A stretch of 64,000 bases of DNA from Streptomyces sp. NBC_00286. Lineage in GTDB: Bacteria > Actinomycetota > Actinomycetes > Streptomycetales > Streptomycetaceae. Numbering within the stretch: the first letter of the stretch is position 1; the number at the start of each line of letters is the position of its first letter. This document shows positions 19,051-60,772 of the stretch, in pieces. Position numbers and translations under genes: made by a program. Location of the stretch: contig NZ_CP108054.1 of the NCBI RefSeq assembly GCF_036173125.1, positions 4,526,001-4,590,000 on the forward strand, written 5' to 3'. The notes under the pieces are model-generated. The model saw only the letters and a list, made by a program, of their open reading frames with translations, did not search any database and was not told the origin of the DNA.

Positions 19051-20433
19051 TCATTCCTCGTCGGGTGGGTCTTCGGGGCCGCCGCTTCGGTGAGGGCGGT
19101 CTGGGTTCGGGGGCTTGGGGGCTGGGTTGCGCTGCTGTTCCCATGCGGTGTCGAACTGGTAGATGTCGGGGATGCCGTCGGCGTCCACGTCGGCCGTCTC
19201 CGCCTCGTACAGCTGTCGGTACCGGTTGTTTCGCACTCTCAGCAGGAGGCATGCCAGTAGCGCTGCGGTCAGTGATCCGAGGAGGACGGCGGCCTTGATG
19301 TGCTCTTGGTCCGCCGGATCGGGGTAGGCCAGTTCGCCGATGAGCAGCGAGACGGTGAAGCCGATTCCGGCGAGCATGGCCAGGGCGAGCACGTCGGCCA
19401 GCGCGAGTCCCGGGCCGAGTTGTGCGCGGGTGAAGCGGATGGCCAGGTACGTGCCGCCGAAGATGCCCAGCACCTTTCCCGCCGCGAGCCCCAGTGCCAC
19501 GCCGAGTGGCTCCGGGCTGGTGACCACGGTTCCCAGCGTGTCGCCCGATACGCTCACTCCGGCCGCGAACAGGGCGAAGAGCGGGACGGCCACTCCTGCG
19601 GAGACGGGCCGGACCAGGTGGGCGATGTGCTCGGCCGGTCGGCGGCCCGCTTCTCCGTCCTTCGCCACACGCAGCAGCAGCCCCATGGCGACTCCGGCCA
19701 CGGTGGCGTGGACGCCACTGGCGTAGGTCAGGCCCCAGATCACCAAGGCCAGCGGGATGTACCAGTACCAGCCGTGCACCCGCCTCTGGTCGTGCAGGTG
19801 GAAGAACAGACCGAGCCCGAGCACCGCGCCGACAAGGGCCGGCACGTTGATCGTCGACGTGTAGAAGAGAGCGATGACGAGAATGGCGCCCAGGTCGTCG
19901 ACGATCGCAAGGGTCAGCAGAAAGGCACGCAGCGCGGAGGGCAGATGGGTGTCGATCACCGCGAGCACGCCCAGGGCGAAGGCGATGTCGGTGGCCATGG
20001 GGACGGCCCACCCGTTCCAGGTCCCGCCCATGGACGTGGCGACGATGCCGTAGACGAGCGCGGGGACGAGCATGCCGCTGACTGCCGCGACCACCGGCAC
20101 GGTCGCCGCCTTGGGGTCTCGTAGCTCTCCGACCACCAGCTCGCGTTTCAGCTCGGCGCCGGCGACGAAGAAGAAGATCGCCAGCAGCCCGTCTGCCGTC
20201 CAGTGGGCAACGGAGAGGTCAAGGCCCAGTGCCGGAATACCGAAGTGGACGTCCCGTACCTCCTCATAGGAGGCTCTCAGCGGTGTGTTCGCCCACAGCA
20301 GCGCCACCGCAGCCGCGGCGAGCAGCAGGATGCCGCCGACGGTCTCCGTGCGCAGAGCCTTCGCCACGAAGGTGTATTCCGGCAGGGGAAGACGGCCGAG
20401 GAAGGTGCGGGGCCTGCTGTTGCGGTGAGGCAT
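19051..20433 (-). CDS. nhaA: NhaA-type Na+/H+ antiporter
   Basis: The roughly 460-residue protein has the NhaA layout of about twelve helices: ETVGGILLLAAAAVALLWAN near the start, GWAVPMATDIAFALGVLA, the ion-binding aspartate pair in LTLAIVDDLGAILVIALFY, then GVHATVAGVAMGLLL and PVSAGVAVPLFALFAAGV. It exports Na+ or Li+ in exchange for protons. The C-terminus (from about residue 410) is a soluble tail with an aspartate-rich ADVDADGIPDIYQ motif, then a proline-rich end. ATG 20433 was taken; GTG at 20454 is possible. It follows the DUF3040 and CBS-like genes in one leftward operon. Confidence 0.92.
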   Translation of the reverse strand: MPHRNSRPRTFLGRLPLPEYTFVAKALRTETVGGILLLAAAAVALLWANTPLRASYEEVRDVHFGIPALGLDLSVAHWTADGLLAIFFFVAGAELKRELVVGELRDPKAATVPVVAAVSGMLVPALVYGIVATSMGGTWNGWAVPMATDIAFALGVLAVIDTHLPSALRAFLLTLAIVDDLGAILVIALFYTSTINVPALVGAVLGLGLFFHLHDQRRVHGWYWYIPLALVIWGLTYASGVHATVAGVAMGLLLRVAKDGEAGRRPAEHIAHLVRPVSAGVAVPLFALFAAGVSVSGDTLGTVVTSPEPLGVALGLAAGKVLGIFGGTYLAIRFTRAQLGPGLALADVLALAMLAGIGFTVSLLIGELAYPDPADQEHIKAAVLLGSLTAALLACLLLRVRNNRYRQLYEAETADVDADGIPDIYQFDTAWEQQRNPAPKPPNPDRPHRSGGPEDPPDEE

Positions 20434-20502
20434 GCAGTCGGTTGCCTTTCGCACGGGGCCTTGAGAGGGGGTCTTGAGTGGTGGTCGGGTCGGCAGATGT
20501 GG

Positions 20503-20964
20503 TCAGACGGCCTGGAGGAGACGCTCGAGGAGGCGCGCGGCCGTGACCACGCCGAGTAGGCGGCCCGGATCTTCGTCGGACCGTTCGACCACGGCGATGA
20601 GAGGGCTTCGGCTGCGGGCCATCAGCTCCGCGATCTCGACGGCTGTCCAGTCGGGAGCGGCGGTGGGCAGGAACGGGCGTTGAGCAGGGAGGCAGTCGGC
20701 GACCGTACGCCCGCGCAGGGCACGGCAGAAGTGATCGGCATGCCGCTCGTCGATCACCCGGGCCAGTCCACCGTCTTCCTGGACGTAGCCCGGAAGCAGT
20801 GTCCTGACCACGTCACAGACAGGCAGGGCCGTGTACGGCTGCCCCACGGCGTCCATCACCAGCAGACCGGGCGGGCTCCGCTCCACGATCAGGCGCACGG
20901 CCTCGATCGCATCGGCGTTCTTGCTGGCCGAGACGTATGGCTCTGCGAGATCACGTGCGCGCAC
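20503..20964 (-). CDS. CBS-like regulatory protein, antiporter partner
   Basis: The 153-residue protein starts at GTG 20964, with GGGAGGAA a few bases ahead. It begins RARDLAEPYVSASKNADAIEA and continues with ERSPPGLLVMDAVGQPYTALP, then a second half ending LIAVVERSDEDPGRLLGVVTAARLLERLL. This reads as two divergent CBS motifs (first about residues 5-60, second about 95-150). CBS pairs bind adenine nucleotides and gate transporters. A paralogue lies next to the NhaA at 29597, and a fragment of a third follows the antiporter at 31992, so an antiporter-regulating role is a reasonable inference. It overlaps DUF3040 upstream by 14 bases. Confidence 0.75.
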   Translation of the reverse strand: MRARDLAEPYVSASKNADAIEAVRLIVERSPPGLLVMDAVGQPYTALPVCDVVRTLLPGYVQEDGGLARVIDERHADHFCRALRGRTVADCLPAQRPFLPTAAPDWTAVEIAELMARSRSPLIAVVERSDEDPGRLLGVVTAARLLERLLQAV

Positions 20965-21373
20965 GGATTCCTCCCGGATAGGCGCTCGGTGGGTCGGTGG
21001 GCAGAAGTCCGGTGCCGCGGCCCGGGAGCCGTTGCCGTGGCGGTGTGCTCGACGGAGTTCGTCGCTCGCTCTGAACGCCCGTACCAGGGCTACGCGGGGA
21101 TCCCGGGTCCTGGTCGGACCGGTACCCATCGCTGTTCAACACCGCGGTGACGCAGATGCCCAGGAAAGCGATGATGGCGAACACCGTGGCGGCGGTCACC
21201 CACCGGTTGCGCTGCTTCTCTTCTTCCTCAAGGCCGTCGTCCGACTGTGCTTGTGCCGCATCGGGGAACTGCTGGTTGAGCGCGTCCATGGTCGCGGCCA
21301 GTTCGGGATCGTCCTGGGCAAGGCGTCGTTCGAGCTGCGCGATGATGCGTCCGTCGTCCATCTCGGGATTCAT
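20951..21373 (-). CDS. DUF3040 membrane protein
   Basis: The 140-residue protein opens with MDDGRIIAQLERRLAQDDPELAATM, the usual DUF3040 start, in which a short acidic helical region precedes the membrane part. One clear helix follows (WVTAATVFAIIAFLGICVTAVL); the second helix of typical members is replaced by a proline/arginine-rich tail, so the protein is atypical or its end is altered. ATG 21373 has GAGG upstream; GTG 21382 is also possible. It overlaps the CBS-like gene and follows the slipin gene in the same operon. Confidence 0.7.
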   Translation of the reverse strand: MNPEMDDGRIIAQLERRLAQDDPELAATMDALNQQFPDAAQAQSDDGLEEEEKQRNRWVTAATVFAIIAFLGICVTAVLNSDGYRSDQDPGSPRSPGTGVQSERRTPSSTPPRQRLPGRGTGLLPTDPPSAYPGGIRART

Positions 21374-25271: not shown

Positions 25272-25460
25272 TCACGGCGCGGGACAGCGTCGGCCTGCCT
25301 CACTGGGAGGCTGTTGGCGAAGGACGGCCACCGCGGATGAGACCTCGATGACCGAGTCGAGGCCGAAGCCGATCGAGGCGGTGGATGAGGCGATCACGGT
25401 GATCGCGACGATCCCCGTCCTCACTCGACTTTCCCGGACCCTCATGGGCCGGGCGTCCAC
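25272..25460 (-). pseudogene. Cation diffusion facilitator (CDF) fragment
   Basis: The minus strand reads GIVAITVIASSTASIGFGLD followed by SVIEVSSAVAVLRQ, matching the second transmembrane helix region of CDF-family metal-efflux proteins, where the GFGLDSVIEV signature includes the metal-binding aspartate. There is no credible start and the reading frame is lost after the fragment. It is a relic of a cation-efflux gene lying next to an nhaA relic. Confidence 0.55.
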
Positions 25461-25541
25461 CAGTACGGTCTGCGGCGAAAGCGGTCTGTGCCGATCGGGC
25501 CCTGCCCGCTACAGTGCAAAGAACGCGTCAAGAAGGCGCGG

Positions 25542-25607
25542 GGTGTGCCGGGAAGTCTGGTCGGCGTTCAGGGGCCGTGTGCCCAAAGCGCCGACGCCCC
25601 GGAGGTC
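25542..25607 (+). promoter_or_regulatory. Antiporter leader element, copy A (ahead of decayed nhaA)
   Basis: A 25-base block at 25542-25566 is identical to copy B (29526-29550) and differs by one base from copy C (31918-31942). GTCGGCG within it pairs with CGCCGAC at 25589-25595, enclosing a small GC hairpin. The CCGGG of the block can also pair with the CCCGG that runs into the GGAGGT ribosome site. The block can alternatively be read as a GTG-started leader peptide beginning CREVWSA. Confidence 0.6.
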
Positions 25608-25614
25608 AGCCCCG

Positions 25615-25777
25615 ATGGCCGCCGCCAGCCGTGACCGCTCCCCCTTCCTGGGATTCCTCGGACTTCCGCCCTGGCCGCAGTTATAGGCAATCACGCGCGC
25701 GCCTGCGCACCGGGCCGGTAAGCGGACTGGTGCTGCTTGTCGCGGCCGTGGTGGCCCTCATCCGGGCGAACACCTGA
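25615..25777 (+). pseudogene. nhaA: Decayed nhaA, N-terminal fragment only
   Basis: ATG 25615 begins MAAASRDRSPFLGFLGLPPW, parallel to the start of the intact antiporter at 29597 (MAAAPRERSTFLGLLPWPE). It hits a stop after 23 codons, and in a shifted frame resumes SGLVLLVAAVVALIRANT before another stop. That resumed piece matches GGLVLLAAAVVALVWANT of the intact protein. About 400 C-terminal codons are missing. The leader element and ribosome site in front are better preserved than the gene, which is striking for a relic. Confidence 0.75.
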
Positions 25778-25837
25778 CCACCGCAGCACCCTGGATTCCT
25801 TGCAGGGTTCTATTGATCCACTTTTTGTCCGAATCGG

Positions 25838-27538
25838 ATGGTGACCGTGGAGCAGGCAGGCAGAACCGGCAGCGCAAGCATGCGGCAGCTCCTGCTGGCA
25901 CTCGGCGAGCCGGTCATCGGCCTGGTCACCGCCCCCGCGGGACTCGATGTCGTGATCGAGAACGTGGTGATCCTGGATCCCGACGACGAGCCGGAGCCCT
26001 GCCCCGGAGCACTCGTACTGATCATCGGCGCCCGGGGCAGCAGAGCCCTCCGCCTCATACGCGCCATGGCGCACCAGGGCGCTGCCGCGGTGGCCGTCAA
26101 GATCGACCACACCGATGATCTCGACGACTTCAAGCGTGTCGCCGCCGAGACGGGTGTTGCGGCACTCGGTGTGCGCCCTGAGGCCCGTTGGGGGCTGCTC
26201 GACTCCGTTGCCAGAGGCGTTGTCGACGATGCGCGGGTGGCCGTGGTGCCGGAAGCCGGCCAGTCGGCGGAGCTGTTCGCGCTGGCCGAGACGGTGGCAG
26301 CCCTCACCGGTGGGATCGTCAGCATCGAGGACAGCACCAACCGGGTGCTGGCCTACTCACGGTCGGACGACGAGGTGGACGAGCTGCGCCGGCGGTCGAT
26401 CCTGGGGTGGCAGGGCCCTGCCGAGTACCTCGCCCTTCTGCGGCAGTGGGGCGTTCTCGAACGGCTGCGCGCCGGTGACGACGTGGTGCACGTCGACGAG
26501 CATCCGGAGCGGGGAATCAGAAGGCGGCTGGCGATCGGCATCCGTGTCGACTCACAGCTTCTGGGGTCGATCTGGGTACAGGAAGGCAGACACAGGCTGG
26601 CGGACAGCGCCGGCACCGCGTTGATCGGCGCTGCCCGGGCGGCAGCGCTGCATCTCGTGCGCCGGCGTACGGGTACGCCTGCCGACCTTCAACTGGAACA
26701 GAGCCTGCTGAGCCGGATGCTCGACGGCCACATCGATCCGCGTACCTTCGCCGACAACATCGGTGTCGACCTGGGGAAGCCGGCGGTGGTCACGGCGTTC
26801 GCCCTGACCGGAAGCCTGCCCGGCGCCGGGCCGGGCGCGGATGCCGAGGCCGGCGCGGATGCCCATGCGGGGGCCGACCGTCCGAGGTTCGAGCTGCAGA
26901 GGTCGGTGATGACGAGTCTGATCTCCGTTCACGCCGCCGCGTACCGGCGCCGGGCGCTGGTCACGGGCGGCTCCCCCCGCGTCTACATGCTGCTGCCGGG
27001 GCTGCCGGAGCAGGGCGCCGAGAGCATCGCGCTCGGTCTGGCCGACGACATCGTGCGGGCGGCCCACCAGCGCCTGAATCTCGACGTCCGCGCGGCTGTC
27101 GGTTCCGCGGTCGGCGGCCTGGACTCGATCGCCAAGTCGAGAGCCGAGGCCGACTGCGTCCTCGACATTCTGACCTCGGGTGGGGAACGGAATGTGGCCA
27201 CCATCGCCGACGTCCGCTCGGAGGTCCTGGTCAGGGAGACGCTGTCACTGCTCGAGAAGAACCCGCGTCTGAGGGACCCGCGGATCACCGCTCTCGTCGC
27301 GTACGACGCGGAGCACGACGCCGGCCTCGTACCGGCCGTGCTCTCCTACCTCGGTGCACTGGGTAATGTGCGTGCGGCCGCCCGGTCCCTCCACATCCAT
27401 ACGAACACCCTGCGCTACCGCCTGAAGCGGGCGAACGCGATCAGCGGAATCGATCTCGCCGATCCGCACCAGGGCCTGTTCTCCCATCTGCAGTTGCTGC
27501 TCGAGACCGGGTCGGAGCCCGTGGTGCACGGACCCTGA
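25838..27538 (+). CDS. PucR-family transcriptional regulator with N-terminal PucR and GAF-like domains
   Basis: The 566-residue protein has a PucR N-terminal ligand domain (residues 15-140, with GLDVVIENVVILDPDDEPEP and GALVLIIGARG), a GAF-like middle (about 145-285), and the C-terminal helix-turn-helix with LGNVRAAARSLHIHTNTLRYRLKRA (about 510-535). A repeated Ala-Gly-Ala-Asp linker (about residues 328-348) is unusual. Family members respond to purines or amino-acid catabolism. The convergent AGCS amino-acid symporter downstream is a plausible target. The start has no strong ribosome site and could be leaderless or slightly later. Confidence 0.85.
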   Translation: MVTVEQAGRTGSASMRQLLLALGEPVIGLVTAPAGLDVVIENVVILDPDDEPEPCPGALVLIIGARGSRALRLIRAMAHQGAAAVAVKIDHTDDLDDFKRVAAETGVAALGVRPEARWGLLDSVARGVVDDARVAVVPEAGQSAELFALAETVAALTGGIVSIEDSTNRVLAYSRSDDEVDELRRRSILGWQGPAEYLALLRQWGVLERLRAGDDVVHVDEHPERGIRRRLAIGIRVDSQLLGSIWVQEGRHRLADSAGTALIGAARAAALHLVRRRTGTPADLQLEQSLLSRMLDGHIDPRTFADNIGVDLGKPAVVTAFALTGSLPGAGPGADAEAGADAHAGADRPRFELQRSVMTSLISVHAAAYRRRALVTGGSPRVYMLLPGLPEQGAESIALGLADDIVRAAHQRLNLDVRAAVGSAVGGLDSIAKSRAEADCVLDILTSGGERNVATIADVRSEVLVRETLSLLEKNPRLRDPRITALVAYDAEHDAGLVPAVLSYLGALGNVRAAARSLHIHTNTLRYRLKRANAISGIDLADPHQGLFSHLQLLLETGSEPVVHGP

Positions 27539-27576
27539 CCCGGTCTCCCGCGGCTCACCGCCGCTCGTCGGTCCCG

Positions 27577-29169
27577 CTATACGGGCTCGTCCGCCGCGGC
27601 AGGTTCCGTGACGTCGCCGCGGGAGTGCAGCGACTGCCGGAACCGTGCCAGCTCCCGCTTGACGACGGGGGCGAGCAGATACAGGCCGATGATGTTGATC
27701 AGTGCGAGCAGGAAGAGTACTGCGTCGGTGAACGCGAGCACGCTGCCGAAGGACAGCACCGCACCCATCACGATGAACGTGCAGAAGATCAGCTGGAAGA
27801 TGCGCTCGCTGACCTTGCTCCTGCCGAACAGGTGGGACCACGCCTTCTGGCCGTAGTAGGCCCAGGTGATCATGGTGGAGATGGCAAAGAGCACCACGGC
27901 CACGGTGAGGACGTGCGGGAACCAGGGGATCACCGTCTCGAAGGCTTCGGAGGTGACCGTGACACCGTCCACGGCCGTACCGTTGGCCGCGTACTCCGCC
28001 TTCGAGTCGTTCCAGTACCCGGTGTCCGCGATGACGATGGTCAGCGCGGTCATCGTGCAGATGACCACCGTGTCGATGAACGGCTCGAACAGGGCGACGA
28101 GTCCCTCGGTGGCCGGGTACTTCGTCTTCACGGCGGAGTGAGCGATGGGTGCCGACCCCAGACCCGCCTCGTTGGAGAACGCGGCACGGGTGAAGCCGAC
28201 GATCAGCGCACCGATGACACCGCCGACCACCCCTTCGCCGGTGAAGGCGCCCGAGAAGATCTCGCCGAACGCCGCCGGCACCGCTGTGATGTTGAACAGG
28301 ATGACGATCAGGCAGGCAGCGACGTAGATGATGGCCATGGCGGGGACCAGGCGGCTGGTCACCCTGCCGATCGACTTGATTCCGCCGACGATCACGGCGC
28401 CGACGACGACGGCGAGCACCACACCCATGATCAGCGCCGATCCGTCGCCGGCGAACGGGCCGTCTTCGCCTCCGGCGCTGTTACGGATCTGGCTGACGGT
28501 CTGGTTGGCCTGGAACATGTTGCCGCCACCGAGGCCGAAGAACAGAACCATGATGGCAGCGAGCCCTGCGAGGATCCTGCCCAGGTACGCACCGGCGGCT
28601 CCGGGCAGCCTCTCCGCCACTCCCTTGCGCAGGTACTGCATGGGGCCGCCGGACACGGAGCCGTCGGGGTGGTAGTCGCGGTAGCGGACCCCGAGCGTGC
28701 ACTCGGTGAACTTCGAGGCCATACCGAGCAGGCCGCAGAGCACCATCCAGAAGGTGGCGCCCGCGCCGCCGATGGTGACCGCCACGCCCACGCCGGCGAT
28801 GTTGCCCAGGCCGACCGTTCCGGACACGGCCGAGGTCAACGCCTGGAAGTGGGTGATCTCCCCCGGGTCGTCGGACTTGCTGTGCCTGCCCCGGAGGACC
28901 TGCAGGGCGAGTTTGAGTCCGCGTACCTGGATGAAACCGAAGTAGAGGGTGAAGACCAGACCGGCGAGAACGAGCCACGCCACGATCCATGGGAAGCCGG
29001 TCCCGAAGACCGTCACTTCCGCGAAGACGAAATCGCCGAGTCCGGTGGCCACCGGATCGAAGAACGAGTTGATGTTCTTCTCTATCGTTCCCAGAAGGCC
29101 CTGTTCCGCTTCCTGGGCCTGGAACCGGACGCTCGCGAATGCAGGCGCCACTTCTTCCATCCGAGCCAT
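27577..29169 (-). CDS. AGCS-family alanine/glycine:cation symporter
   Basis: The 530-residue protein has about eleven membrane helices and the family motifs: FQALTSAVSGTVGLGNIAGV (the Na+/substrate site), TFWMVLCGLLGMASKFTECTLG, and GFTRAAFSNEAGLGSAPIAH. It takes up alanine or glycine with Na+ (some members use H+). ATG 29169 follows AAGGGA. It converges with the PucR-type gene and lies among Na+/H+ antiporters, fitting a sodium-linked district. The C-terminal tail ends in a short acidic stretch. Confidence 0.92.
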   Translation of the reverse strand: MARMEEVAPAFASVRFQAQEAEQGLLGTIEKNINSFFDPVATGLGDFVFAEVTVFGTGFPWIVAWLVLAGLVFTLYFGFIQVRGLKLALQVLRGRHSKSDDPGEITHFQALTSAVSGTVGLGNIAGVGVAVTIGGAGATFWMVLCGLLGMASKFTECTLGVRYRDYHPDGSVSGGPMQYLRKGVAERLPGAAGAYLGRILAGLAAIMVLFFGLGGGNMFQANQTVSQIRNSAGGEDGPFAGDGSALIMGVVLAVVVGAVIVGGIKSIGRVTSRLVPAMAIIYVAACLIVILFNITAVPAAFGEIFSGAFTGEGVVGGVIGALIVGFTRAAFSNEAGLGSAPIAHSAVKTKYPATEGLVALFEPFIDTVVICTMTALTIVIADTGYWNDSKAEYAANGTAVDGVTVTSEAFETVIPWFPHVLTVAVVLFAISTMITWAYYGQKAWSHLFGRSKVSERIFQLIFCTFIVMGAVLSFGSVLAFTDAVLFLLALINIIGLYLLAPVVKRELARFRQSLHSRGDVTEPAAADEPV

Positions 29170-29596
29170 TGCGATCCCTTTCTCCAGCCCGGCGACACCG
29201 AGCTGCCAGCCCCAGACCGGGGCTTCACATGTCGGGAACCGTAGAGGGCGCCGACCGGCTGGGTCCCGGTGCGATCGGCCAAAGATCTGGCAGGTCATTC
29301 GTCAATCGGTCCGTCCGCGCCTGCCCTCGACGTCCTCACGCAGCCGCCACCCGCCGGAGGACTCCAGCGAGGCTGGGCGGAGGGTCCGTACCACTTCGCG
29401 CCTTGATGTGTACGGACCCGCTCGTTGTGCGTTGCGGCAGGTGAAACGGCGTCTGGTCGGATGAAGGGCAGGCGGTTAGGGTGTCCGGAACGCGTCGGTG
29501 TCCTGCCCAGGGGCGCCGTACGCAGGGTGTGCCGGGAAGTCTGGTCGGCGTCGAAGGGGCGTATGCCCTCACGCCGATGCCCCGGAGGTCTTCCTG
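29170..29596. other. Intergenic region: symporter promoter side and nhaA leader
   Basis: The left part should hold the promoter of the leftward symporter. The right part, from about 29460, is the transcribed leader of the rightward nhaA gene and ends in leader copy B (29525-29590) and the GGAGGT ribosome site. No extra gene is seen. Confidence 0.5.
29525..29590 (+). promoter_or_regulatory. Antiporter leader element, copy B (ahead of intact nhaA)
   Basis: The 25-base block at 29526-29550 equals copy A. GTCGGCGT (ending 29551) pairs with ACGCCGAT (29571-29578), where the last C of copy A is replaced by T, giving G-U in place of G-C: pairing is kept. A GGGGC-GTAT-GCCC hairpin sits inside. The element ends in GCCCCGGAGGTC, which carries the ribosome site seven bases before the nhaA ATG, so structure here could block translation. 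Confidence 0.65.
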
Positions 29597-30913
29597 ATGG
29601 CTGCTGCCCCGCGTGAGCGTTCCACCTTCCTCGGCCTGCTGCCGTGGCCGGAGCGGACAGCGGTGGCCCAGGCCCTACGGACGGAAACCGTCGGCGGGCT
29701 GGTCCTTCTCGCAGCGGCCGTGGTGGCGCTGGTGTGGGCGAACACCCCGTGGAGCGGCACCTACGAGGAGATCCGCGACTTCCACTTCGGCATCCCCGCA
29801 CTCGGCCTCGACCTGTCGGTGGAGCACTGGACCGCCGACGGACTGCTGGCTGTCTTCTTCCTGGTCGCAGGCATCGAGCTGAAACGCGAGCTCGTCGTGG
29901 GTTCGCTGCGTACTCCGGCCACGGCCGCACTGCCGGTCGTCGCCGCGCTGTGCGGCATGGCCGTGCCGGCCGCCGTCTACGCTGCCACCGCCACCGTCGG
30001 CGGGGGCAGTCTGGAGGGCTGGGCCGTGCCCATGGCCACCGACATCGCCTTCGCCCTCGCCGTCCTCGCCGTCATCAGCACCCACCTGCCCTCCGCGCTC
30101 CGCGCCTTCCTGCTCACCCTCGCCATCGTCGACGACCTCGGCGCGATCCTCGTCATCGCGATCTTCTTCACCAGTGACCTGAACTTCGCCGCCCTCGGCG
30201 GAGCCGTCGGCGGGCTGGTCGTCTTCTACGTACTCCAGCGGTACCGCGTGCGCGGCTGGTGGTGGTACGTACCGCTCGGCCTCACCATCTGGGCCCTGAT
30301 GTACAACGGAGGCGTCCACGCCACCGTCGCCGGGGTGGCCATGGGCCTGCTCCTGCGCACGACCCGTGACGAGGACGAGGACGCCTCACCCGCCGAGCGG
30401 ACCTCACATCTGCTGCACCCGGTCTCGGCAGGAGTGGCGGTACCGCTCTTCGCTCTCTTTGCCGCAGGCGTCGGATTCTCCGTCTCATCGCTGGCCGAGG
30501 TGTTCACCCAGCCGGAGCCGCTCGGCGTGGTGCTGGGCCTGGTAGTCGGCAAGACCGTGGGAATCTTCGCGGGCACCTACCTCGCCGCGCGCTTCACCCG
30601 GGCCCGCCTCAACCCCGACCTGGCCTGGGCAGATGTGTTCGCCCTGGCGGTGCTGGCAGGGATCGGCTTCACCGTGGCCCTGCTGATCGGGGAACTCGCC
30701 TTCCCCGACCCGGCCGATGCCGAGTACATCAAGGCCGCTGTGCTGCTGGGCTCGCTGATCGCCGCGGCCGTGGCGACGCTGCTGATCAAGCGCCGCAATG
30801 GGATCTACCGCCGTCTGTGGGAGGAGGAGACGCGGGACGAGGACGCCGATGGCATCCCCGACATCTATCAGCAGACCAACCCCGGACGCGGCAGCGTCAC
30901 GGGCGACAGCTGA
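29597..30913 (+). CDS. nhaA: NhaA-type Na+/H+ antiporter with leader-controlled start
   Basis: The 438-residue protein shows all NhaA landmarks: GGLVLLAAAVVALVWANT, ELKRELVVGSL, GWAVPMATDIAFALAVLA, the ion-site aspartates in LTLAIVDDLGAILVIAIFF, and PVSAGVAVPLFALFAAGVGF. A soluble C-terminal tail again contains DEDADGIPDIYQ, as in the paralogue at 19051. ATG 29597 is fixed by GGAGGT seven bases before it. It heads a three-gene unit with the CBS-like gene (11-base gap) and a small membrane protein. Leader copy B directly precedes the start. Confidence 0.94.
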   Translation: MAAAPRERSTFLGLLPWPERTAVAQALRTETVGGLVLLAAAVVALVWANTPWSGTYEEIRDFHFGIPALGLDLSVEHWTADGLLAVFFLVAGIELKRELVVGSLRTPATAALPVVAALCGMAVPAAVYAATATVGGGSLEGWAVPMATDIAFALAVLAVISTHLPSALRAFLLTLAIVDDLGAILVIAIFFTSDLNFAALGGAVGGLVVFYVLQRYRVRGWWWYVPLGLTIWALMYNGGVHATVAGVAMGLLLRTTRDEDEDASPAERTSHLLHPVSAGVAVPLFALFAAGVGFSVSSLAEVFTQPEPLGVVLGLVVGKTVGIFAGTYLAARFTRARLNPDLAWADVFALAVLAGIGFTVALLIGELAFPDPADAEYIKAAVLLGSLIAAAVATLLIKRRNGIYRRLWEEETRDEDADGIPDIYQQTNPGRGSVTGDS

Positions 30914-30924
30914 GGAGGACGGTC

Positions 30925-31383
30925 ATGCGCGCACGGGACCTTGCTGAGCCCTGCCCCTTCGTGACCACGGACGACGACGCGATCAGCGCGGCCCGGATGC
31001 TGGCGGAGCAGTCGCTGCCGGCCCTGCTCGTCCTCGACGCCGATGGACAGCCCTACTCCATCGTGCCCGGCTCCCAGCTCATCCGGCAGCTCCTCCCCTC
31101 CTACATCATCGAAGACCCGCTGCTCGCCCATGTCGTCGACGAACGAACCGATGCCGAGGTCGCGGAACGGCTGACCGGGCTCACCGTCGCCGAGTGGGCG
31201 CCGCGCCGTCTGTACCCGCCGCCTGTGGTGGGGCCGGACGCGCGCCCGATGGAGGTCGCGGCACTGATGGCCAGTACACACAGCCCCCTGGTCGCCGTCG
31301 TGGAACGTGACGGCACCCAGGTGACGCTGCTCGGTACGGTCACCGCCGCCCGCCTCATGCACCACTTCCTTGAGGCCTCGTGA
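30925..31383 (+). CDS. CBS-like regulatory protein, antiporter partner
   Basis: The 152-residue protein opens RARDLAEPCPFVTTDDDAIS and continues LPALLVLDADGQPYSIVPGSQ, then [20 protein letters not shown], giving two divergent CBS motifs. It is a clear paralogue of the protein at 20503-20964 (same start, same length, same GQPY core). ATG 30925 follows GAGGA, and its stop overlaps the GTG of the next gene (GTGA). Linked to an NhaA in both complete copies, it probably senses adenine nucleotides or a cyclic dinucleotide and modulates the antiporter; that is inference. Confidence 0.78.
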   Translation: MRARDLAEPCPFVTTDDDAISAARMLAEQSLPALLVLDADGQPYSIVPGSQLIRQLLPSYIIEDPLLAHVVDERTDAEVAERLTGLTVAEWAPRRLYPPPVVGPDARPMEVAALMASTHSPLVAVVERDGTQVTLLGTVTAARLMHHFLEAS

Positions 31384-31649
31384 ACGGCGCCCGGGCTTTA
31401 CTGCCGGTGGTCATCGTGGCCGCCGCGCTGGTGATCAGGACCGCGATCGGTGAGATACGCCGGCCAGGCACCGTACGGGAGCAGTGGACGTCGGCGACGA
31501 GCGGCCGCGCCGTGGCTGCCGGGGTGGTGACGGCCGTGGCCATCACCGTGACGGGCTGGCAAGAGGCCGGACCGGCGGCATTGGCGTGGGCGATGCTGAC
31601 CGGTGCGCTCGTCGCCTTGCTCATGGGCCGGCCGCCGAACAGGTCCTGA
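31380..31649 (+). CDS. Small membrane protein of the antiporter operon
   Basis: The 89-residue protein has three hydrophobic segments (residues 6-20, 43-60, 65-82) joined by a basic loop. GTG 31380 overlaps the stop of the CBS-like gene, so it is translationally coupled and almost certainly real. No known family was recognised. It may be a small subunit or assembly helper of the antiporter complex. No equivalent was found next to the NhaA at 19051. Confidence 0.65.
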   Translation: MNGARALLPVVIVAAALVIRTAIGEIRRPGTVREQWTSATSGRAVAAGVVTAVAITVTGWQEAGPAALAWAMLTGALVALLMGRPPNRS

Positions 31650-31991
31650 CAACGCCTCACCCTCCGCTGTGACCGCCACCGCAGAGGCCTCCGCGAGGAG
31701 TTCGGTGTGCCCGTTCAGGAATGAATGCGTGGGGCAGACGCCTCCGCGCATACGCCCGTAGGCTGCCGCACCCGTGCTCTGACGGGCTGGGAAACGAAAC
31801 CCGGTGAAGCGGCTCTCGGGACTTGCGCACCATGCCGGAATCCGGCAGTGTCCGGGAGGCCGGAGTGCCTGCAAAGAGTCTGTCAGTGCCGCGTAAAGGA
31901 CGTGTAGGGTTCCTCGCGGTGTGCCGGGAAGCCTGGTCGGCGATCTGGAGAGAACTCTCTCCAGTCTCTTGGCTGATCGGGGGTCGTGGTC
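31650..31991. other. Intergenic leader region of the CPA1 antiporter gene
   Basis: No gene is seen. Several short inverted repeats built on CCGG occur at 31835-31880, and leader copy C at 31918-31983 leads into the antiporter start. This suggests a transcribed leader of 150 bases or more. Confidence 0.45.
31918..31983 (+). promoter_or_regulatory. Antiporter leader element, copy C (ahead of CPA1 antiporter)
   Basis: The block at 31918-31942 differs from copies A and B by one base (T to C). The enclosed hairpin is changed completely to CTGGAGAG-AACT-CTCTCCAG (31945-31964). The outer pairing is remade: GGTCGGC (31934-31940) pairs with GGCTGATC (31971-31978) with two G-U pairs and then the GGGGG ribosome site follows. 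Different sequence with the same fold supports an RNA-level role. Confidence 0.6.
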
Positions 31992-33236
31992 ATGGTGCTC
32001 GTCGTTGTTTTCGGGGTGGCGCTGCTCGTCGCGGTGCTGCTGTCGGGCCTCGCGGCACGGACCGTATTGTCGACGTCGTTGCTCTTCCTGGTCGGTGGCG
32101 CGCTCGTCAGCGACGGGTTCCTCGGGCTGATCCACATCACGCCGGACAGCGAGATCGTGTCCGTGACGGCCGACTTGGCACTGTTCGCGGTGCTGTTCAC
32201 CGATGGCATGCACGTCTCCTTCCCGAAGCTGCGGGAGAACTGGCGCAACCCGGTCCGCGCCCTCGGGCTCGGCATGCCGCTGGCGTTCGTCGGCATGGCG
32301 CTGATCACCCATTTCGTGGTGGGCCTGGACTGGACGACGTCCTTCCTCGTCGGCGCCGTCCTCGCGCCGACCGACCCGGTGTTCGCCTCGGCGATCGTCG
32401 GCCGCAAGGAAGTCCCGGCGAAACTACGGCAGTTGCTGAACGTGGAGAGCGGCATCAACGACGGGCTCGCCCTGCCGATCGTCCTCATCTTCATCGCCGC
32501 GGCCGGTCCCACATCCGGGCACGCCGAGGCGTCGCTCGGGAAGATCGCGCTGGAGCTGGTCCTCGGGCTGGTCTTCGGCGTCGTACTGCCGCTGGCCGTG
32601 ATCGGCCTCGTACGCTTCCGGCTGCTGGGCGCCGAGCCCAAGCTGCAACCGCTGCTGCCGCTGGCCATCGGCGTGATCCTGTACGCCACGTGCCACCTCA
32701 CCCACGCCAACCCCTACCTCGCCGCGTTCTCCGCCGGAGCGGTCCTCACCGCCCGCTCCCCCGAGGCGAAGACCGCGTTCGAGCCGCTCGGTGAGGCACT
32801 GGCCGAGCTGGCGAAGTTCGCGGCGCTGCTGGTGTTCGGCGCGCTGCTCACCCCGCAGCTCTTCGGGGACCTGTCAGTGGGCGGTTACGTCGCGGTCGTC
32901 CTGGCCATCGTGCTGATCCGGCCGGCCTCGCTGCTGCTGTCGCTGGTCGGCACCCGGTTCGACCAGCGGGAGAAGCTGGTCGCGGCCTGGTTCGGGCCGA
33001 AGGGGTTCGCCTCCGTGGTGTACGGGCTGCTGGTGCTGCAGGCCGGGATACCGCGGGGCGAGGAGGCGTTCACGCTCATCGCCGTGTGCATCGCCTTCTC
33101 GATCGTCGCGCACAGCAGCACCGACGTGCCGATCGCCCGCCTGTTCCACGTCGACGAGCTGGTCGGTGTGCCCGGTGCCCGCCAGGACGCGGACACCGCC
33201 CTCACCAAGCAGGAGTCCGGCCAAGTCGGCGCGTGA
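31992..33236 (+). CDS. CPA1-type Na+/H+ (cation:proton) antiporter
   Basis: The 414-residue protein has about twelve membrane helices with CPA landmarks: FTDGMHVSFPKLRENW, FLVGAVLAPTDPVFASAIVG (the TDP unwound helix), NVESGINDGLALPIVLIF (the ND ion-binding pair), and AWFGPKGFASVVYGLLVL. It exchanges Na+ or K+ for H+. ATG 31992 is preceded by GGGGG; GTG 31986 is possible. Leader copy C stands directly in front. A fragment of a CBS-like gene begins within its 3' end, so an antiporter-CBS module once existed here too. Confidence 0.9.
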   Translation: MVLVVVFGVALLVAVLLSGLAARTVLSTSLLFLVGGALVSDGFLGLIHITPDSEIVSVTADLALFAVLFTDGMHVSFPKLRENWRNPVRALGLGMPLAFVGMALITHFVVGLDWTTSFLVGAVLAPTDPVFASAIVGRKEVPAKLRQLLNVESGINDGLALPIVLIFIAAAGPTSGHAEASLGKIALELVLGLVFGVVLPLAVIGLVRFRLLGAEPKLQPLLPLAIGVILYATCHLTHANPYLAAFSAGAVLTARSPEAKTAFEPLGEALAELAKFAALLVFGALLTPQLFGDLSVGGYVAVVLAIVLIRPASLLLSLVGTRFDQREKLVAAWFGPKGFASVVYGLLVLQAGIPRGEEAFTLIAVCIAFSIVAHSSTDVPIARLFHVDELVGVPGARQDADTALTKQESGQVGA

Positions 33237-60449: not shown

Positions 60450-60526
60450 TGGAGCCCCCTGTCGGATTCGAACCGACGACCTACGCATTACAAGTGCGTT
60501 GCTCTGGCCAGCTGAGCTAAGGAGGC
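60450..60526 (-). tRNA. tRNA-Thr (anticodon TGT), CCA encoded
   Basis: The minus-strand sequence folds into a full cloverleaf: acceptor GCCTCCT with AGGGGGC, D-arm CTCAGCTGGCCAGAGC, anticodon loop CTTGTAA with anticodon TGT, and T-arm GTCGG-TTCGAAT-CCGAC. The discriminator is T and CCA is encoded (60452-60450). It reads ACA codons. The gene stays intact because the element carries the identical 3' part at attR. Confidence 0.95.
60452..60495. repeat. attR, right 44-bp copy within tRNA-Thr
   Basis: Identical to 44643-44686. It covers the 3' end of the tRNA-Thr gene through the anticodon region, as is usual for tyrosine-recombinase targets. Recombination between the two copies would excise a circle of about 15.8 kb and leave one intact tRNA-Thr. 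Confidence 0.93.
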
Positions 60527-60639: not shown

Positions 60640-60772
60640 CCAGGTACCGTCCTGACCCAGTCCGCCCTGTGTGGACTGAACCACAACACCACAACGGAAT
60701 CACCCGTAGTGGCACCACCTTCCACAACGGATCGTCCGGCACGTTCCTGCCGGTAGAAGGGGGCCCATCACC
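60640..60772 (+). promoter_or_regulatory. Structured 5' leader of msiK
   Basis: The region before msiK holds CCGGCA-CGTTCC-TGCCGG (60736-60753), a perfect stem just before the ribosome site, and a weaker stem on GTCCGC/GTGGAC near 60660-60676. A conserved RNA of this location (the msiK motif) has been described in actinobacteria. I assign this stretch to it by position and hairpin, not by alignment. Confidence 0.45.

Follow-up and report, generated by a model that had tools for sequence, protein, structure and literature searches.

A 25-nucleotide leader RNA hairpin repeated before Na+/H+ antiporter genes of Streptomyces and found across many actinobacteria: a candidate cation-responsive translational switch

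Why should one short block of DNA stand almost unchanged in front of three antiporter loci, and does it act as RNA, as peptide or as DNA? The question is raised by a stretch of 64,000 nucleotides (nt) of Streptomyces sp. NBC_00286 (contig NZ_CP108054.1, positions 4,526,001 to 4,590,000, forward strand; the whole stretch is called the window and all coordinates are counted from its first base). The 25-base block GGTGTGCCGGGAAGYCTGGTCGGCG is found on the + strand at 25542-25566, 29526-29550 and 31918-31942 (copies A, B and C). Copies A and B are identical in sequence; copy C has a single difference (block position 15, T to C). A broken nhaA remnant lies behind copy A, an intact nhaA behind copy B and a gene for a CPA1-type exchanger behind copy C, the last two backed by Pfam. 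These positions, identities and genes had been given by an earlier, sequence-only reading of the window and are exact as claimed. A leader RNA widespread in actinobacteria has this block as its core, with almost the same sequence in many of them. That this RNA element exists is regarded as secure, with very little doubt. As to its function, the reading that fits best is a riboswitch-like translational ON switch for Na+ or a coupled cation, which is given about an even chance.

The recurrence of the block is far from chance. A 21-base core (up to 3 mismatches) has 3 matches in the window versus a mean of 0.01 in 100 shuffles. The genome holds 5 exact copies of a 19-base core: the 3 in the window, L005 upstream of another nhaA and L001 upstream of a SulP-cluster gene (L-numbers denote loci carrying candidate elements). 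A covariance-model search, the check proposed by the sequence-only reading, revealed further copies, with covariation, in hundreds of genomes: the element is present in 234 of 345 sampled genomes of the window's class (model R1, 26 positions, E ≤0.01), with up to 9 copies per genome. The observation thus withstood the refuting conditions set by that reading. An exact-match scan of one genome per species gave at least 120 loci; among the matches listed, 79 of 80 titles are actinobacterial and one is a Chloroflexi contig from a metagenome-assembled genome (MAG). Outside the window's class, a pair-blind scan of 296 genomes of the phylum (up to 2 mismatches) gave exact matches in at least 10 genomes; a reversed-pattern control shows that most of its 2-mismatch matches are background. 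The copy on the contig titled as a Chloroflexi MAG (L012, 7044-7063) lies ahead of an amino acid permease-like gene and has no near -10 box. Divergent pairs of elements, in opposite directions and about 120-210 nt apart, are found at L209, L213 and L273. Carriage by phages was considered and rejected: the only 2 matches among viral contigs (L260, L261) both lack the GGWG tail and look like chance.

The consensus of 276 elements (55 distinct 25-mers) is GGWGN-GCCG-GGAAGNCUGGU-CGGC-N. The conserved helix is a hairpin of 4 base pairs inside the block (P1, GCCG/CGGC), closed by an almost invariant loop of 11 nt (a loop variant, CGGGU for CUGGU, is found in L134, L135, L222, L226 and L229-L232). 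This helix, the one with true covariation, was absent from the sequence-only reading. Two-sided stem changes were found in seven elements: GCTG/CAGC in L147 and L223; GTCG/CGAC in L149 and L158; TCCG/CGGA in L233, L279 and L281. The 5′ tail and a -10 box are present in each of the seven. A scan of 284 candidates that tolerated one unpaired position gave no one-sided stem change in any element with a box. The formal count was made on 37 of the 55 distinct 25-mers (alignment A2), rows being kept only if all four pairs were present; it gives 7 two-sided cells in 3 of the four P1 pairs, 0 one-sided cells and 100% pairing. None of 500 shuffles has a covariation score as high. Eight of the 284 candidates were dropped before counting, leaving the 276: three with weak loops; L163 (three pairs, no box); one element of L176; L228 and L234 (stem intact and box present, with a single mismatch in the tail of each); L236 (no box, a mismatch in the loop and a two-sided stem). 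The loci of the exact-match scan (at least 120) supply 138 of the 276 elements, and 136 of the 243 elements with a first gene. Absolute counts at the stem, at position 15 and at position 25 are biased because the pattern of that scan constrained them (stem fixed; position 15 only T or C; position 25 fixed G). The stem variation comes from the 2-mismatch scan, among the matches listed, and from the covariance model.

Positions 5 and 25, which adjoin the stem on its outside, are strongly coupled (z 38.7). The pair is U.G in 183 of the 276 elements, C.A in 43, A.G in 14 and A.A in 12; it is Watson-Crick in 8, versus about 79 by shuffling. The coupling is kept in the 138 elements whose retrieval left position 25 free: U.G 69 (45 expected), C.A 32 (12.5 expected) and Watson-Crick 7 (49 expected; the lowest of 2000 shuffles gave 32). 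U.G and C.A wobbles have the same geometry in RNA, so the stem probably carries a required non-Watson-Crick pair beneath it. Two other folds of the block were considered. A local hairpin CCGG/CUGG was rejected: it is 96.6% paired and has no two-sided change, against the 7 two-sided cells of GCCG/CGGC. A two-tier G-quadruplex is compatible with the conservation (four conserved GG tracts are all present in 271 of 276 elements) and appears unneeded where the last tract is lost: 4 elements lose it through stem changes that keep P1 paired.

The features of the three copies in the window are the following (competing strand, a linker segment able to pair with the element; linker, the sequence between element and start codon).

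25510-25515, + strand: -10 box of copy A (TACAGT; prediction only), its first base 13 nt ahead of a conserved ACGCGTC
25542-25566, + strand: element copy A, with tail GGUGU at 25542-25546
25547-25550 and 25562-25565, + strand: P1 of copy A, 5′ strand GCCG and 3′ strand CGGC
25551-25561, + strand: loop of copy A, GGAAGUCUGGU
25566, + strand: wobble partner G of copy A
25589-25595, + strand: linker strand CGCCGAC of copy A, could pair with GTCGGCG at 25560-25566 (from the sequence and the nhaA-type alignment)
25598-25602, + strand: CCCGG of copy A, overlapping the likely ribosome site GGAGG at 25601-25605
25615-25686, + strand: 5′ end of the broken nhaA remnant behind copy A, including its stop after 23 codons
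29477-29482, + strand: -10 box of copy B (TAGGGT; prediction only), its first base 13 nt ahead of ACGCGTC
29526-29550, + strand: element copy B, with tail 29526-29530, loop 29535-29545 and wobble G 29550
29531-29534 and 29546-29549, + strand: P1 of copy B, GCCG and CGGC
29571-29578, + strand: competing strand ACGCCGAT of copy B, could pair with GTCGGCGT at 29544-29551
Region to 29588, + strand: CCCCGGAGG, 3′ of the competing strand of copy B, holding the likely ribosome site GGAGG at 29584-29588
29597-30913, + strand: intact NhaA Na+/H+ antiporter gene behind copy B (PF06965, E 6e-132)
31905-31910, + strand: predicted -10 box TAGGGT of copy C, the predicted transcript start being the first G of the element; prediction only
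31918-31942, + strand: element copy C, with tail 31918-31922 and wobble G 31942
31923-31926 and 31938-31941, + strand: P1 of copy C, GCCG and CGGC
31927-31937, + strand: loop of copy C, GGAAGCCUGGU
31972-31978, + strand: competing strand GCTGATC of copy C, could pair with CCTGGTCGGC of the element and runs into the likely ribosome site GGGGG at 31979-31983
31992-33236, + strand: CPA1-type sodium/hydrogen exchanger gene behind copy C (PF00999, E 1.6e-42)

Most elements are spaced regularly from a -10-like box. A TANNNT motif starts 17-21 nt before P1 in 185 of 242 elements, and at -18 in 126 of them; of those outside -17 to -21, 35 have TANNNT within -22 to -75 and 22 have none. With this spacing, transcription is predicted to begin at the GGWG tail, copy C being an example (all transcript starts given here are predictions). 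Thirteen elements without a near box, including copies A and B, carry ACGCGTC upstream. In 12 of these 13, TANNNT is found exactly 13 nt before ACGCGTC (copy A, 25510-25530; copy B, 29477-29500; L024, L049, L088, L092, L095, L100, L121, L126, L171 and L175); the thirteenth, L056, has none in range. In these 12 leaders the element is thus placed 16-43 nt further into the transcript. Pairing of GCGUC with GACGC or GAUGC just before the ribosome site is a possible second layer of control.

The genes behind the element were classed by giving 243 elements their first open reading frame (ORF), clustering these by blastp and scanning one representative per cluster with Pfam. The scan took in the larger clusters and several single ones; some single-member clusters were unscanned. 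L046 and L081 gave no ORF and are outside the 243, and copy A, whose nhaA is broken, was for that reason assigned to the PucR-type gene nearby. First genes or operons belong to cation-transporter clusters in 185 of 243 cases: NhaA 122, CPA1 26, CBS-domain gene 10, Mrp/NuoL-like 9, CitMHS/NhaD-like 7, Na/Ca exchanger 4 (two clusters), TrkH 2, P-type cation ATPase 2, and single genes for TrkA, a membrane pyrophosphatase and CitMHS_2. The cation-antiporter context proposed by the sequence-only reading is supported. The frame following the 10 CBS genes is NhaD-like in 7 and NhaA-like in 1 (judged by eye). Other clusters are ABC ATPase 9, amino acid permease 4, alpha/beta hydrolase 4, two without Pfam match (4 and 3), SulP 3, PEP-synthase-like 3, STAS 3, methyltransferase 2, DUF6653 2 and other single genes. 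Viewed from the genes, in a sample of 60 class genomes picked independently of the element, it lies just upstream and on the same strand of 31 of 57 near full-length nhaA genes (67 nhaA matches in all); the gap to the start of the NhaA domain is 64-142 nt in 30 of the 31 and 264 nt in one. Half of the elements of this sample (31 of 62 with E <1e-4, from 69) precede nhaA.

Between element and start codon the linker is short (median 47 nt in the NhaA cluster) and is enriched in sequence complementary to the 3′ half of the element. The complement of GGUCG is found in 64 of 184 linkers versus 25.8 in shuffles (z 9); complements of GUCGG and UCGGC are also enriched (z 5.6 and 5.8). No enrichment of linker complementarity to the 5′ half or to the loop as a whole was found (z 0.3 and -0.6). 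The only 5-mer enriched outside the 3′ half is TGTGC of the 5′ tail, whose complement GCACA occurs in 13 linkers versus 5.7 (z 3.5). In predicted folds of 146 leaders, the 3′ half is paired with the linker at 0.71 for real versus 0.52 for shuffled linkers (p 1e-13), and the Shine-Dalgarno sequence (SD) is paired with the element at 0.29 versus 0.17 (p 1e-5; higher in 58% of leaders). In CPA1 leaders a competing helix of 9 pairs takes in the Gs of the SD, with 95.9% of cells paired versus at most 54.5% when the helix is slid. In nhaA-type leaders (alignment A5) the stem on GUCGGCG pairs less regularly (82.9%), and CCGGG is able to reach CCCGG overlapping the SD. P1 and the competing helix are mutually exclusive. 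When P1 is forced, the wider start region becomes slightly more open (0.42 to 0.46, p 8e-6, 171 leaders).

Two claims of the sequence-only reading bear on this region. The alternative pairing of CCGGG with the ribosome site is indeed possible. The outer stem that it described around the hairpin can be drawn in all three copies; its preservation by compensating changes did not stand, as the stem is kept by G-U or one-sided changes and no two-sided pair was found in 10 nhaA-type or 11 CPA1-type leaders. Only such changes are seen because the 5′ strand of the outer stems is the invariant block. The outer stem is one half of the competing fold; it differs from leader to leader and shows no covariation in itself. 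The expression platform is backed statistically, is not uniform and lacks covariation of its own, beside a structured domain in which covariation is present.

The following mechanism is proposed. Each block would be a cis-acting leader RNA of about 25 nt, forming in most cases the first transcribed bases of the mRNA, as predicted. Its active form would comprise the 4-base-pair P1 hairpin, the 11-nt loop, the non-Watson-Crick (mostly wobble) pair below and the 5′ GGWG tail. Without its signal, the RNA would instead pair its 3′ half (GGUCGGC) with the linker complement, a fold able to involve the ribosome site. P1 would be stabilised, and the competing fold broken, by binding of Na+ or by a coupled cation or proton level; since the two helices exclude each other, a signal stabilising P1 is proposed to free the ribosome site. 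Translation of the antiporter would then rise, which defines a translational ON switch. By association with known riboswitches, a context made up largely of antiporter genes suggests Na+, Li+ or alkaline pH as the signal. Known Li+ riboswitches on nhaA activate expression (accessible part of PMC9646797), and the riboswitches already known for Li+ and Na+ control genes of similar kinds, which they activate (accessible parts of PMC9646797 and PMC9337991).

Several observations weigh against this proposal. The stem covariation depends on 7 elements, and the predicted energy minimum lies far from P1, whose mean probability is 0.002. A plain CGAYC complement is found in only 80 of the 184 linkers (in 54 of these 80 it ends 8-20 nt before the start codon, beside the ribosome site). 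Total pairing of the SD is the same with real and shuffled linkers (0.61 and 0.63, 146 leaders). The competing helix of CPA1 leaders changes on one side only and has a covariation score of 0.156 versus 0.167 in shuffles; in nhaA-type leaders a slid version of the whole structure scores higher than the proposed one (0.131 versus 0.109). With P1 forced, the SD core is more open in 40, less open in 56 and the same in 75 of 171 leaders; the view that P1 simply opens the SD in every leader is unsupported by folding. About a quarter of the first genes (58 of 243) are outside the cation-transporter clusters, and 26 of the 57 nhaA genes, one of them in the window, lack the element. Gene context cannot separate Na+, Li+, alkaline pH and osmotic signals, and it is from this context that the ligand is inferred.

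The main rival is a reader acting in trans: the hairpin would be the binding site of an RNA-binding protein or small RNA controlling a salt-stress regulon, and its loop the recognition sequence. A loop and GGWG tail that are nearly invariant on a short and weak stem, and a regulon-like diversity of first genes, are what such a reader could produce. No candidate factor turned up, though no systematic search was aimed at one, and the enriched linker complementarity fits self-contained switching, though a small ligand is not required for it. This explanation is considered unlikely, if far from negligible; even with a protein reader, the element defines a salt-homeostasis regulon. An improbable alternative is a riboswitch for another ligand tracking the osmotic or ionic state, for example a cyclic dinucleotide. 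A 25-nt hairpin would be very small for a dinucleotide aptamer, and most first genes are held by Na+/H+ antiporter clusters, not by K+ systems. As such a ligand would allow, the genes behind some elements are potassium-transport-like (TrkH, TrkA) or have no link to sodium, and Na+ and cyclic di-AMP riboswitches are reported to work together (accessible part of PMC9337991).

A transcription factor could also recognise positions +1 to +25 as DNA, as an operator or a core-promoter element; in favour of this, 185 of 242 elements stand at a fixed distance from a -10-like box. This is very improbable: the stem changes are two-sided, the only box found in 12 leaders lies 16-43 nt further upstream, and a dyad operator in particular is ruled against by a centre that is no dyad and by a flanking pair that is mostly U.G or C.A, a wobble in RNA and asymmetric in DNA. 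A translated leader peptide with attenuation (CREVWSA or CREAWSA), which the sequence-only reading had already ranked below RNA, is largely excluded and scarcely credible: GTG is in frame in 219 of 276 elements, whereas 57 of 276 have GAG, GCG or GGG at the start codon, no stop position is held in common, changes at position 15 (T in 191, C in 73, A in 10 and G in 2 elements, half of the elements being from loci of the pattern that allowed only T or C) alter the amino acid, and the stem changes are two-sided.

Control by Na+ or a coupled cation is retained as the preferred reading. Its most specific form is put forward tentatively, at less than even confidence: in much of Actinomycetota, the export of sodium would be governed by a 25-nt, usually 5′-terminal hairpin sensing Na+ or the Na+/H+ balance, with a pocket formed by the U.G/C.A wobble under the 4-base-pair stem and the almost invariant 11-nt loop. 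If true, the element would be among the smallest natural ion-sensing RNAs and a minimal RNA for studying alkali cation selection by RNA; it would let Streptomyces and relatives sense sodium or pH directly at their nhaA, CPA1, Mrp-like and NhaD-like genes. It would be a regulatory RNA class present in about two thirds of the sampled class genomes and unmatched in Rfam 15.

The surroundings of the three copies are as follows. A third nhaA of the window (19051-20454, - strand) has no element and lies directly behind a CBS-domain gene (20503-21129, - strand); CBS genes ahead of antiporter genes elsewhere do carry the element, unlike this pair. A sodium:alanine symporter gene (27577-29298, - strand) lies between copies A and B, and a PucR-type regulator gene (25838-27538, + strand) directly 3′ of the broken nhaA remnant. 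With three nhaA copies, a CPA1 gene and the symporter gene, the window looks like a sodium-homeostasis island. The msiK leader RNA (60710-60768, + strand) and a tRNA (60453-60526, - strand) are Rfam gathering matches in the window.

The sequence-only reading did not recognise a known class in the element, and this agrees with Rfam 15: no family, including nhaA-I, nhaA-II and DUF1646, matches the blocks at gathering score. Permissive searches of copies B and C alone gave nothing; at E ≤10 the region 25300-32100 has 12 weak matches, all under gathering scores, of which IRES_n-myc, overlapping copy A, has 13 bits versus 40 for gathering and is taken as chance. No description of the element was found in the literature searched; reach into subscription papers was limited, so absence from print is unproven. 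A text search with a 9-letter piece of the element gave nothing on it among the matches listed (titles and abstract starts), the accessible part of PMC3765725 holds nothing on this leader, and no sodium riboswitch for Actinomycetota turned up in the literature searched.

Four known systems invite comparison. The msiK leader RNA (RF01747) is likewise a cis-regulatory RNA and occurs in the window, whereas its family and place are separate and the blocks do not match its model. The dauA motif (SRC-36-1, Narunsky et al. 2024) is described in the accessible part of PMC11109978 as a Streptomyces leader of a STAS-domain gene with the SD in its structure, a three-stem junction with 57 members, all from Streptomyces, and sulfate as guessed ligand. 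The likeness is that L001, of the same genome as the window, lies ahead of a SulP-cluster gene (its cluster mate L101 gives Sulfate_transp and STAS in a Pfam scan); the dauA motif may be one leader carrying this element, the two being compared by description only, on the accessible text. L001, L099 and L101 have no Rfam match at E ≤0.5. Of the 243 elements, 3 are in the SulP cluster and 3 in a STAS cluster, most being elsewhere; if the dauA motif contains the element, a small special case of the class is already in print, with a different proposed ligand and structure. STAS-domain genes with an element of their own were also seen ahead of CPA1 (L177, 5049-5600, a genome of the same genus) and ahead of a frame resembling a sodium:amino acid symporter (L175, by eye). 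Na+-I (the DUF1646 motif) is associated with Na+ transport genes including nhaD (accessible parts of PMC9337991 and PMC9646797) and, as far as these describe it, has two extended stems, P1 and P2; the element does not match its Rfam model. Li+-I (nhaA-I) and Li+-II (nhaA-II) are likewise leader RNAs ahead of nhaA, the place that the element has at 31 of 57 nhaA genes. The element does not match their Rfam models at permissive thresholds (E ≤10 or 5), and the tested Li+-I construct, in the accessible account, has 73 nt and stems P1 and P2, whereas the element is one hairpin of 25 nt.

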